NCBI RefSeq assembly: GCF_000337835.1
Contig: NZ_AOLM01000003.1
Location: forward strand, 186,001 to 250,000
Length of the DNA stretch: 64,000 nucleotides
Source of the DNA: Haloferax sulfurifontis ATCC BAA-897
Lineage (GTDB): Archaea > Halobacteriota > Halobacteria > Halobacteriales > Haloferacaceae
Reading direction: 5' to 3'
Under the pieces are notes generated by a model, which ran no database searches, was not told where the DNA came from, and was given only the letters and a program-made list of their open reading frames with translations. Each line of letters opens with the position of its first letter. Position 1 is the first letter of the stretch. A program made the position numbers and the translations under genes. This document shows, one piece after another, positions 10,475 through 14,602 of this stretch.

Positions 10475-12061
10475 GTGACGGACGACTCCTCTCCCTCCTC
10501 GTTCGTGCAGTACGGTATCGACGACAAACCACCCCTTCCGACCGCTCTCCTTCTCGGCGCCCAACACTACCTCACCATGGTGGGCGCGAACATCGCCGTC
10601 CCCCTCATCCTCGCCGGAGCCCTCGGCATGCCCGCCGACGTGGTGCCGCGGTTCGTCGGGACGTTCTTCGTCGTCTCCGGCATCGCGACGCTGATGCAGA
10701 CGACGTTCGGGAACCGCTACCCCATCGTGCAGGGCGCGCCCTTCTCGATGCTCGCGCCGGCGCTCGCCGTCGTCGGCGTGGCGACGGCGGCCGACCAGTC
10801 GGGGGTCGCGTGGCAGAGCGCGCTGTTACAACTGCAGGGCGCGATTATCGTCGCGGCCGTCGTCGAGGTGTTCGTCGGCTACTTCGGCCTGCTCGGACGC
10901 CTCCGGAAGTTCATCTCGCCGGTCGTCATCGCGCCGACCATCGCGCTCATCGGGCTGTCGCTTTTCAACGCCCCGCAGGTCGCGTCCGCCACGAACAACT
11001 GGTGGCTCCTCGGCCTGACGCTCGCGCTCATCGTCCTGTTCTCGCAGTACCTCGACACCGCCCATCCGGCGTTCAAGCTGTTTCCGGTGTTGCTCGGCGT
11101 CATCGTCTCGTACGTCGTCGCCGCCGGCCTCTCGGTCGCGGGCGTCATCGCCCCCGGCGCGGCGGGCTACGTGAACCTCCAGACGGTCATCGAGGCCCCG
11201 GCGCTCATGCCCATCTACCCCCTGCAGTGGGGCTTCGCGGGCGGCCCGGGGGCGACGACCGTTTCGCTCCCCGTCGTGGGCTCGGTCGCGTTCGGCGTCC
11301 CGCAGTTCACGACCTCCTTCATCATCGGGATGCTCGCGGGCGTCGCGGCCTCGATGGTCGAATCGTTCGGCGACTACCACGCCGTCGCCCGGCTCTCGGG
11401 CGTCGGCGCGCCCTCCGAGCGCCGCATCAACCACGGCATCGGCATGGAGGGCCTGATGAACGTCTTCTCGGCCGTCATGGGCGGGAGCGGCTCGACCTCC
11501 TACTCCGAGAACATCGGCGCAATCGGCCTCACGGGCGTGGCCTCCCGCTACGTCGTCCAAATCGGTGCCGCCGTGATGCTCGTCATGGGCTTCGTCGGCT
11601 ACTTCGGCCAGCTCATCGCGACGATTCCCGACCCCATCGTCGGCGGCCTCTACGTCGCCATGTTCGGCCAAATCGTCGCCGTCGGCCTCTCGAACCTGAA
11701 GTACGTCGACCTCGACTCTTCACGGAACGTGTTCATCGTCGGCGTCGCCATGTTCACCGGCCTCGCCGTCCCCGCCTACATGGGGAACGTCGGGAGCGCG
11801 GCGGCGTTCCGCGAGGGGATGCGGCAGGTCGCGCTCGTCGGCCCCGTCCTCGGGACGCAACTCGTCGCCGACACGGTGTTCGTCATCGGCTCGACCGGCA
11901 TGGCCGTCGGCGGCCTCATCGCCTTCTTCTTCGACAACACCATCGCGGGCACCCGCGCCGAGCGCGGCCTCGAAGAGTGGGAAGACACCGTCGAAGACGA
12001 CAGCGACTTCGAGTCGGCGCTTGACCGCTTCCGCGGCGACGAGTCGGCGACGGCCGACTGA
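10475..12061 (+). CDS. NCS2-family nucleobase (uracil/xanthine) permease
   Basis: Inner-membrane nucleobase:cation symporter of the UraA/xanthine permease family, 528 residues with about 14 hydrophobic segments. Family hallmarks seen are the N-terminal LLLGAQHYLTMVGANIAVPLI, the first substrate-binding region around NRYPIVQGAPFSMLAP, the conserved MVESFGDYHAVARLSG near residue 300, and GSGSTSYSENIGAIGLTGVASR near 340. A charged tail follows the last helix. The start is GTG behind a G-rich sequence. Uracil versus purine specificity is not decidable here. Confidence 0.9.
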   Translation: MTDDSSPSSFVQYGIDDKPPLPTALLLGAQHYLTMVGANIAVPLILAGALGMPADVVPRFVGTFFVVSGIATLMQTTFGNRYPIVQGAPFSMLAPALAVVGVATAADQSGVAWQSALLQLQGAIIVAAVVEVFVGYFGLLGRLRKFISPVVIAPTIALIGLSLFNAPQVASATNNWWLLGLTLALIVLFSQYLDTAHPAFKLFPVLLGVIVSYVVAAGLSVAGVIAPGAAGYVNLQTVIEAPALMPIYPLQWGFAGGPGATTVSLPVVGSVAFGVPQFTTSFIIGMLAGVAASMVESFGDYHAVARLSGVGAPSERRINHGIGMEGLMNVFSAVMGGSGSTSYSENIGAIGLTGVASRYVVQIGAAVMLVMGFVGYFGQLIATIPDPIVGGLYVAMFGQIVAVGLSNLKYVDLDSSRNVFIVGVAMFTGLAVPAYMGNVGSAAAFREGMRQVALVGPVLGTQLVADTVFVIGSTGMAVGGLIAFFFDNTIAGTRAERGLEEWEDTVEDDSDFESALDRFRGDESATAD

Positions 12062-12078: not shown

Positions 12079-12084
12079 TTTTTT
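12079..12084 (+). terminator. Oligo-T terminator after the NCS2 permease gene
   Basis: Six T residues follow a GC-rich stretch 18 bases after the stop codon, a typical archaeal termination signal. Confidence 0.5.
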
Positions 12085-12118
12085 CGGGTCGCCTAAAAAC
12101 CGATGCGTTTTTCTATAG

Positions 12119-12132
12119 TTAGGCGCGCCTAA
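12119..12132 (+). promoter_or_regulatory. TTAGG-type palindromic operator before the repeat/cupredoxin lipoprotein
   Basis: The perfect 14-base palindrome TTAGGCGCGCCTAA lies five bases before the ATG at 12137, between the TATA-like TTTTCTATA (about 12108-12116) and the predicted leaderless start. A protein bound here would block initiation. The TTAGG...CCTAA form matches the DtxR/IdeR class of metal-dependent regulators, to which haloarchaeal SirR/Idr iron regulators belong. A single half site, GCCTAAAA, also occurs at about 12091. Confidence 0.65.
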
Positions 12133-12136
12133 AACC

Positions 12137-14602
12137 ATGAACTACAGCAGACGGCGTCTCTTGCAGACGACGGGACTCGCAGTCGCGACCGCCGGACTCG
12201 CGGGCTGTAACGGCCAATCGAGCGATGAATCGACCACCGCCGCCGAGACCGATTCGGAGACGGAGACCGCGGACGGAACGACCACCGAGGACGCCGAGTC
12301 GTCGGTGAGCGTCGACGCCACCGTCTCCGTCGCGGCCGAGTGGAACGCCATGCGCGCTCGGCTCTACGACACCGTCGCGCTGGCCGACGCGGGGCGACTG
12401 GGCACCGCCGCCCGCGTCACCGGCGACGTGTTCACCCGGTTCGAACAGTCGTCGGGCGAGTGGGGCGCACACGAGCAGTTGGAGGCGACGAACGAACAGA
12501 ACTACGAGACGTTCGAATCGCACCTCGGCGGCGCGCGAGAGGCGTACGCCGCCGGCGACGCCGAGCGCGGTGCGGACCTCGCGGTGCAGGCGGCCGACAA
12601 CCTGCTGGCGGCCCAGCGCGGCCGGGTCGACGCCGCCGTGGTCGACGCGCTGGACGTCCTGCTGTTCGGCGCTCGCGCCCGCGACGCCGGTCTGCTCGCC
12701 GCGGCCGGCGAGGTCGACGCCGCGGCCGAACTGGCGAACGCGGTGTACGAGGGCTTCGAGGACGCGCCCGCCCACTCGGCGCTCGAGTCCGCCTCGGGCG
12801 AACTGTACGAGACCTTCGAGGCGGCCGTCGAGGGTGCGGCCGACGCCGGCGACGCCGAGACGCTCGCCGCCTCGGCCCGGACCGCCGCCGCGGCGACGGT
12901 CGACGCGAGCTACGAACTCGCCCCCGAGACGGTCGCGGGCGCGGGCCACCTCGCGCTCATGCAGGCGGTCGGCTTCGACGCCGAGGTGCTGGCCGGGCTC
13001 GGCGGTCCCGGCGACGAGTTCGCCCACGCGGCCGCGCTGTCGCTCTACCGCGCCCGCGCCGCCGACGTGCCCCGGTTGGTCGCCGCGGGCGAGGCCGACT
13101 TCGCCGCGACGGTGGCGAGCGACGTGTTCGCCCACTTCGAGGGCGCTCGGGCGCACGAGGCGTTAGAGGAGGCCGACCACGACGCCTACGAGGGCTTCGA
13201 GGGCGGACTTGAGTCGCTGACTGAAGCCGCCGAGTCGGGCGACGTCGCGGCGGCCGAGGAGGCGGTGGCGACGGTCGACGAGAACCTGCTCGCGGGAATC
13301 TCGGCGCTCGTCGGCGGCGAGGCCGCGACCGTCCTCGAAGCGGCGTTCTTCCGCGCCCGCCTCGGCGACGCCCGCGAGCTGGTCGCGGTCGGCGAGACGG
13401 ACCGCGCCGCCGCGGTCGGCGAGGACCTCTTTTCCCGCTTCGAGGAGAACGAGGCGGACCTCCACGAGTCCGTCGAGGAGGAGTCCGAAGAGCTGTACCA
13501 CCGCTTCGAGGAGGAGCACCTCGCGGGGCTCGTCGAGGACGCGGCCGCCGGGAACGCCGGCGCCGCCGCGGCCCACGCCGAGGGCGCGACGGACGCGCTG
13601 TTCGAGTTCGAGGCGGCCGTCGGCGCGACCGCCGAGGTGTCGGCCGCCGAGGCCGCGTTCTTCGGTGCTCGCGGGTTCGACGCCGCGGCGCTCGCGCAGG
13701 TCGGTGCGTCGGCCCGTGCCGCGACGGTCGTCCAGTCCACGTTCGCCTTCTTCGAGGCCGGCGCGGGCGGCTACCACGAGACCTTGGAGGAGGCCGACCA
13801 CGACCTCTACGAGTCGTTCGAGGGCGCGCTCGGCTCGGTCCGAACCGCGGCCGAGGAGGGCGGCGACACCTACGGCGCGGCCAAGACCTACGGCCAGCGA
13901 GCGGTCGATTCGATGTACGCCGTCGTCGCCACCGCGGCCGCGGACGCCGGTCTCGGAGCCGCCGCGTCGGAGCGCATGACCGGCGTCTTCCAGACCTTCG
14001 AGGAGGCCCGCGTCCACGAGGCGTTAGAGGAGGCCGACCACGACGCCTACGAGGGCTTCGAGGCGGCCCTGTCGGACTACGTCGCCGCGCTGGAGGACGG
14101 AAGCGAGGTCGACGCCGCCGCGGAGACGTACGCGACGGCGACGGCTCGCGCCCAGTTCGCGGTCGTCGGCGAAGTCGGGAAGGCCCCCGAGGCCGGGAGT
14201 ACCGATGAAAGCGGCTCCGCGGACACGTCACTCACCGGCGGTCCGAACGTCGTCGAGGGCGTTCCCGAGGAGGCAGACCACGTGGTGAAGATGAACGCCG
14301 TCGCGTTCGAACCGGCGGAACTGACCGTCTCCGTCGGCGACACGGTCGCCTTCGAGCACACCGCCGGCGAGGCGCACTCGGTCACGGCCTACGGCGACGA
14401 CCTCCCCGAGGGCGCGGCGTACTGGGCCTCCGGCGGCTTCGAGTCCCAAGAGTCGGCCGAGACCGGATGGGGCGAGGGGAAGGGTGCGGTCCAGTCGGGC
14501 CAGTCCTACGTCCACACCTTCGAGACGGCCGGCGAGCACGCGTACTTCTGCGTGCCCCACGAGGCCGCGGGCATGACCGGAACCGTCGTCGCCGAGGAGT
14601 AG
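12137..14602 (+). CDS. Lipoprotein with six helical repeats and a C-terminal cupredoxin domain (DUF5059-like, EfeO-like candidate)
   Basis: An 821-residue secreted protein. A twin-arginine-like start (SRRRLLQTTG) leads to the lipobox LAGC with Cys at about 24, followed by a Thr/Ser/Glu-rich spacer. The body has six divergent repeats of about 80-125 residues, each containing xHxxLE then YxxFE, at about residues 111, 212, 338, 441, 545 and 625 (best copies HEALEEADHDAYEGFE). The last 110 residues are a halocyanin-like type-1 copper domain with ligands His746 (EAHSVTAY) and Cys, His and Met in YFCVPHEAAGM. Cupredoxin plus helical His/Glu domains recalls bacterial EfeO. Together with the metal-regulator-like palindrome at the start, I infer a role in iron or copper acquisition at the cell surface; direct function is unknown. 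Confidence 0.8.
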   Translation: MNYSRRRLLQTTGLAVATAGLAGCNGQSSDESTTAAETDSETETADGTTTEDAESSVSVDATVSVAAEWNAMRARLYDTVALADAGRLGTAARVTGDVFTRFEQSSGEWGAHEQLEATNEQNYETFESHLGGAREAYAAGDAERGADLAVQAADNLLAAQRGRVDAAVVDALDVLLFGARARDAGLLAAAGEVDAAAELANAVYEGFEDAPAHSALESASGELYETFEAAVEGAADAGDAETLAASARTAAAATVDASYELAPETVAGAGHLALMQAVGFDAEVLAGLGGPGDEFAHAAALSLYRARAADVPRLVAAGEADFAATVASDVFAHFEGARAHEALEEADHDAYEGFEGGLESLTEAAESGDVAAAEEAVATVDENLLAGISALVGGEAATVLEAAFFRARLGDARELVAVGETDRAAAVGEDLFSRFEENEADLHESVEEESEELYHRFEEEHLAGLVEDAAAGNAGAAAAHAEGATDALFEFEAAVGATAEVSAAEAAFFGARGFDAAALAQVGASARAATVVQSTFAFFEAGAGGYHETLEEADHDLYESFEGALGSVRTAAEEGGDTYGAAKTYGQRAVDSMYAVVATAAADAGLGAAASERMTGVFQTFEEARVHEALEEADHDAYEGFEAALSDYVAALEDGSEVDAAAETYATATARAQFAVVGEVGKAPEAGSTDESGSADTSLTGGPNVVEGVPEEADHVVKMNAVAFEPAELTVSVGDTVAFEHTAGEAHSVTAYGDDLPEGAAYWASGGFESQESAETGWGEGKGAVQSGQSYVHTFETAGEHAYFCVPHEAAGMTGTVVAEE

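Follow-up and report, generated by a model that had tools for sequence, protein, structure and literature searches.

The 821-residue haloarchaeal protein described here probably captures or oxidizes iron at the cell surface and probably has an evolutionary origin distinct from that of bacterial EfeO. Our best explanation, which we hold with modest confidence, is a lipid-anchored surface protein, regulated by iron starvation, that captures iron at several sites and uses a halocyanin domain as its redox partner. Regulation by iron supply is the best-supported step of this mechanism; conservation, residue type, and domain makeup suggest that the protein binds several iron ions and that its copper domain has a redox role. 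The gene lies in a Haloferax genome, within the window (the whole stretch of DNA analyzed, 64,000 nucleotides), to which coordinates refer unless a locus is named.

The open reading frame encodes a putative Tat lipoprotein composed of an RR-type signal with a lipobox (MNYSRRRLLQTTGLAVATAGLAGC), a helical region of about 620 residues, and a C-terminal copper-binding domain. DUF5059 (PF16502) covers the helical region end to end (934 bits versus a cutoff of 25; model positions 2 to 619 of 619), and this region consists of six tandem units of about 100 residues, each with an E...HxxxE...YxxxE pattern. The features of the gene are as follows.

12137 to 14602, plus strand: DUF5059-halocyanin lipoprotein gene (PF16502, E = 5.7e-281; PF00127, E = 1e-14), counterpart of HVO_1228/hcpE
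12137 to 12208, plus strand: Tat-type signal and lipobox (LAGC, residues 21 to 24), assigned from sequence; C24 and R5-R6 invariant
12317 to 12625, plus strand: repeat 1 (residues 61 to 163), a four-helix unit; E103, H112, E116, Y123, E127
12626 to 12922, plus strand: repeat 2 (residues 164 to 262), whose site is degenerate, with Tyr replacing His213 in 9 of 21 orthologs
13004 to 13312, plus strand: repeat 3 (residues 290 to 392); E335, H340, E344, Y351, E355
13313 to 13624, plus strand: repeat 4 (residues 393 to 496); E436, H443, E447, Y454, E458
13625 to 13948, plus strand: repeat 5 (residues 497 to 604); E540, H547, E551, Y558, E562
13949 to 14164, plus strand: repeat 6 (residues 605 to 676), sharing its first helix with repeat 5; E622, H627, E631, Y638, E642
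14240 to 14599, plus strand: cupredoxin (halocyanin/plastocyanin-like) domain (residues 702 to 821), with type-1 copper ligands H747, C805, H808, M813

The first-pass annotation had proposed a Tat-type lipoprotein with six repeats and an intact C-terminal type-1 copper site, and all three proposals were borne out. The reading frame, its coordinates, and the signal were confirmed, and Cys24 is invariant in an alignment with 21 orthologs (47 to 80% overall identity); a profile built from the six units gave exactly six matches in the gene and none elsewhere in the genome; and the four copper ligands are kept in 21/21 orthologs.

Near relatives occur in Haloferax, Haloarcula, Halobacterium, Halorhabdus, and other haloarchaea. 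The DUF5059-halocyanin family was found in 77 of 292 sampled Halobacteria genomes (27 of 77 genera), and its matches in a phylum-wide sample of 295 genomes were confined to the same order. HVO_1228 of Haloferax volcanii, recorded as hcpE or as a DUF5059 protein (PMC7714728; PMC9051519), and HFX_RS06015 of Haloferax mediterranei share the family and the architecture, DUF5059 followed by a copper-binding domain; both are annotated only as being of unknown function or as having a halocyanin domain. We take HVO_1228 as the ortholog by family membership rather than direct alignment, because the family search matched H. volcanii and HVO_1228 is the DUF5059 protein of that species. The published descriptions that we found for DUF5059 or HVO_1228 contain no mechanism, operator, or site analysis. 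Two copies, one in H. massiliensis (L007:6001-8778) and one in another Haloferax (G266:C2:910654-913457), do not stay in frame: the open frames are longer and the profile matches are split, through either a frameshift or an assembly error.

Upstream of the gene, two TTAGGNNNNCCTAA-like sites 36 bp apart lie on either side of a putative TATA box.

12083 to 12096, unstranded: distal operator TTCGGGTCGCCTAA, matching TTAGGNNNNCCTAA at 9 of 10 positions
12100 to 12117, plus strand: putative BRE/TATA region CCGATGCGTTTTTCTATA, between the operators and about 25 bp before the ATG; presumed promoter
12119 to 12132, unstranded: proximal operator TTAGGCGCGCCTAA, a perfect palindrome; the genome has 24 perfect sites, this one included

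The palindrome of the proximal site had been singled out at first pass as the target of a metal regulator. It is indeed perfect, it has the partner just described 36 bp upstream, and its type belongs to a genome-wide iron-uptake regulon (24 perfect sites versus 1 for a reversed control pattern), which supports the operator assignment. The ATG stands four bases past the proximal operator, a short spacing that would be expected of a leaderless haloarchaeal transcript. Orthologs carry a TCGAA...CTTTTA-like sequence at the place of the putative BRE/TATA region, and in all six-repeat orthologs checked, a site matching at 8 or more of 10 positions corresponds to the distal operator and lies roughly at -52 to -57. 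The operator pair, with 34 to 37 bp start to start, is present in every six-repeat ortholog checked (22 loci plus 29 further genome loci, with species partly overlapping); since none of 30,000 mononucleotide shuffles of the ortholog upstream regions yielded such a pair, it is not a product of chance. Conservation of gene neighborhood was sought across the orthologs and not found, flanking genes varying between genera, and no permease or ferroxidase was found linked to the gene, which counts against the proposed role in iron capture. The persistence of the operator pair across many genera while flanking genes differ points to control that is specific to the lipoprotein gene. Directly upstream, on the same strand, a gene of the xanthine/uracil permease family (10475 to 12061) ends 22 bp before the distal operator and is apparently unrelated to the lipoprotein gene.

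The genes behind the perfect sites of the genome are mostly those for siderophores and iron ABC transport. Operators stand before the genes for seven Peripla_BP_2 lipoproteins of the siderophore-binding type and for a class-III aminotransferase adjoining one of them, before an FAD-oxidoreductase and FecCD operon, and before an operon of a substrate-binding protein (SBP) and a permease. The 36-bp spacing recurs exactly at several other operator pairs, and another pair has a DtxR-family gene nearby. The regulator presumably belongs to the DtxR family. The content of the regulon points to iron rather than copper as the probable metal. A number of sites (those in L040, L042, L043, L047, and L051, several of those in L052, and a single one in L053) are not followed by any clear iron gene. 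In L052:3052-3195 (G000:C18:71751-71894), a perfect 36-bp operator pair is followed by an ATG (L052:3108), 29 codons with an RR motif, and a TGA; this is a decayed lipoprotein gene or a tiny open reading frame, lying about 0.9 kb upstream of a DtxR-family gene. The 402-residue CARDB-domain protein encoded right behind a perfect 36-bp pair at L042:1772-3037 (G000:C27) may match the Ig-fold partner of an iron-induced RND permease reported earlier (PMC11349517). The operator-preceded FAD-oxidoreductase and FecCD operon at L053:3192-5290 (G000:C21) matches in gene content an H. mediterranei operon repressed together with siderophore genes during denitrification (PMC11218638).

Published expression data place HVO_1228 among iron genes. 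In an endA knock-down it is among the ten most induced genes (log2 4.2), together with iucA, iucB, iucD, diaminobutyrate genes, and iron SBPs (PMC7714728), and in another study it is lowered (log2 -2.92) alongside iucA, dat, and an iron SBP (PMC9051519). Both cases are indirect, coming from RNA-processing and DNA-repair strains rather than from an iron shift. Speaking against the proposed role, HVO_1228 is not mentioned by name in the main text of a proteome study of iron-starved H. volcanii, which states that fhu genes carry a ferR regulon signal (PMC11349517). From the shared operator type and the published coexpression, membership of the lipoprotein gene in the iron regulon is well supported.

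Turning to the helical region, the AlphaFold2 model (mean pLDDT, 86; helices mostly above 90) has four helices per unit, the third of which is broken between its His and Tyr segments. Within each unit, helix B ends with a Glu, and helix C begins with HxxxE, which is followed later by YxxFE. The initial description of xHxxLE followed by YxxFE in all six repeats stands for the repeats themselves but not for the exact motif, as repeat 4 has HESVE and repeat 2 is degenerate. A third conserved element, the Glu of an FE pair ending the preceding helix (E103, E335, E436, E540, and E622), is equally invariant. In repeats 1, 3, 4, 5, and 6, all 25 Glu, His, and Tyr residues of the sites are identical across the 21 orthologs, a conservation that is not due to chance, since only 9 of the 88 other Glu, His, and Tyr residues of the helical domain are invariant (Fisher P = 7e-18). 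The His position of repeat 2 is His in 11 orthologs, Tyr in 9, and Gln in 1, and this exchange between two possible iron ligands would fit a ligand position. By conservation and residue type, the 25 invariant residues are candidate metal ligands; they may instead be structural, and conserved Arg and Asp residues of the first helices (R305, R307, D310, D411, and D515) could pair with the Glu residues.

When 284 genomes were scanned with the repeat profile, six repeats were found in nearly all full-length proteins and three in a shorter form, with extra or weak matches in a few genomes; weak single-repeat matches (E of about 0.001 to 0.01) in genomes without DUF5059 were taken as compositional chance. 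The short form (497 to 514 residues; loci L083 to L088, in six genomes of two other families) has the same copper domain and also carries the proximal operator, in a scan accepting sites of at least 8/10. Its profile matches are equivalent to the first two repeats and the final one of the long form, so that the long form may have arisen by insertion of three repeats or the short form by their loss. A PDB search with sequence profiles of the helical part gave only chance-level matches to designed or repetitive helices; the best (8e1e, 7.6e-5) covers only 39 residues of a construct named SG122_C3 and was counted among them.

The copper domain appears conventional. Its model superposes on plastocyanin 1byo (Z = 14.3; 1.2 Å over 92 residues), full-length searches by Foldseek and VIA-align returned cupredoxins only, and the NCBIfam plastocyanin model TIGR02656 comes closer than the halocyanin domain TIGR03102, both being below their cutoffs (52.7 versus 87.85 bits and 33.1 versus 93.8 bits, respectively). 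From the full type-1 ligand set and the plastocyanin-like model, ordinary blue-copper electron transfer would be expected. The protein has a lipid-anchored type-1 copper domain in common with halocyanin, the haloarchaeal blue copper lipoprotein, and is set apart by the iron-regulon operator on its gene. To our knowledge, classic halocyanins have no helical repeats.

We propose the following mechanism. The two TTAGGNNNNCCTAA operators on either side of the putative TATA box would control transcription, presumably through a DtxR-family regulator; this step is well supported by sequence and by published coexpression in RNA-processing and DNA-repair strains. The signal and lipobox suggest that the protein would be exported by the Tat pathway and anchored on the outer face of the cell. 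Its five to six four-helix units would each offer a Glu, His, Glu, Tyr, Glu site suited to Fe3+ or Fe2+, as their perfect conservation and residue type suggest. The halocyanin domain may then exchange a single electron with the iron, most likely by taking it from Fe2+, and the Fe3+ would be retained and passed to the coregulated Fe3+/siderophore-binding lipoproteins. We favor oxidation of Fe2+ and retention of Fe3+, since a blue-copper center is able to accept an electron and sites of Glu and Tyr are suited to Fe3+; the opposite direction, in which the copper domain reduces bound Fe3+, is a less likely possibility. Such a working mode would resemble that of EfeO or of FtrAB-type cupredoxin systems, while descent appears to be different.

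The first-pass annotation had likened the protein to EfeO, and its likeness in parts (a multisite helical His/Glu/Tyr protein with an intact copper domain) stands, whereas membership in an EfeO system is not supported. M75 (PF09375) had no hmmscan match at E ≤ 1 in the protein and none in the 21 orthologs against Pfam; hhalign against an EfeO alignment gave a probability of about 0.2%, with shallow alignments; and the GxHxxE motif of M75 (G80-x-H82-x-x-E85 in the EfeO alignment) is absent, the DUF5059 repeats having HxxxE. No match to the FTR1-type permease (PF03239) was found in the same genome, and a search of 292 Halobacteria genomes, for which E. coli and B. subtilis served as positive controls, yielded neither M75 nor FTR1 genes. 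After the full-length searches had given cupredoxins only, the helical module R4-R6 was folded and searched separately. In this structural comparison with EfeO's M75 domains, which had been suggested as a check at first pass, Foldseek ranked Algp7 and EfeO 2nd to 4th, but with nonsignificant E values (0.67 to 0.86), and one repeat fits one bundle of imelysin 3n8u with Z = 9.8 (2.4 Å over 104 residues), which is within helical-bundle noise, bundles below Z = 13 being liable to match by chance and not evidence of kinship. In VIA-align, imelysin ranked below both PsbQ and SMBP, a small metal-binding protein. The fold similarity of the modeled module to EfeO/Algp7 is therefore only suggestive. Despite the Foldseek ranks and the imelysin fit, the hhalign and Pfam results, the better-scoring PsbQ and SMBP, and the lack of M75 and FTR1 matches in the 292 genomes make a true, highly diverged EfeO/imelysin homolog with reordered domains improbable, and the likeness to EfeO holds as an analogy of parts, not of descent.

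This analogy has clear bounds. EfeO and EfeM (M75) of the bacterial EfeUOB system are likewise extracytoplasmic and iron regulated, combining cupredoxin and helical bundles with conserved His, Glu, and Tyr residues. EfeO, however, has the reverse domain order and two bundles instead of six or three, and its cupredoxin lacks the full type-1 ligand set (that of E. coli has the Cys but neither the following His nor the Met), whereas the DUF5059 protein has all four; EfeUOB also includes an EfeU-type FTR1, and none was found in the haloarchaea searched. The FtrABCD and P19/FetM systems similarly work with an FTR1-type permease, which was not found in the 292 Halobacteria genomes. We know of no FtrB-type cupredoxin with a helical-repeat domain. 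EfeM Site III consists of Tyr, His, Glu, Glu, and Asp (PMC9174327), and a role in Fe2+ oxidation for uptake has been proposed for FtrB-type cupredoxins (PMC11966278; PMC9174327).

Other explanations concern what the repeats and the copper domain do. The protein might be a respiratory adaptation, a dedicated halocyanin made in iron shortage to replace iron proteins as electron carrier, with the repeats as a scaffold or spacer reaching partners through the S-layer. In favor of this, haloarchaea are considered to use halocyanin as their one-electron carrier (PMC8305020), the protein has an intact copper domain, and replacing iron by copper would fit with induction when iron is low; a scaffold alone, however, would need neither 25 invariant Glu, His, and Tyr residues nor a His/Tyr exchange at one position of repeat 2, and the restriction to six or three repeats suggests that they have a function, so that we consider this explanation unlikely. 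We give still less credence to the capture of heme or Fe-siderophores, with His and Tyr binding heme or a ferric chelate that the copper domain would reduce. His and Tyr are common heme ligands and the gene is coregulated with siderophore biosynthesis and Fhu-type transport, but three invariant Glu residues per repeat would favor a bare metal ion over heme, and the regulon is already rich in Peripla_BP_2 siderophore-binding proteins. Least probable of all is a scavenger of copper or another metal: the copper domain is present, and sensing by DtxR-family proteins can extend to other metals, Mn for example, yet the identified genes behind the operator are mainly iron and siderophore genes, and the published coexpression is with iron genes.

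The DUF5059-halocyanin family occurs in about a quarter of the sampled haloarchaeal genomes and in the model organism H. volcanii, yet the published descriptions that we found present it only as being of unknown function or as a generic halocyanin. Its placement in the iron regulon and its 25 candidate ligands make its role testable in a genetically tractable archaeon. Tentatively, since we hold this broader view to be possible but somewhat less than probable, DUF5059 proteins may form a hitherto unrecognized class of extracellular multi-iron redox proteins, with six or three four-helix iron modules wired to a blue-copper domain, providing an archaeal form of high-affinity iron capture whose evolution was independent of EfeO/FTR1. 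If true, this would represent a convergent use of cupredoxin and helical bundles for iron handling at the cell surface, in organisms where neither M75 nor FTR1 was found.
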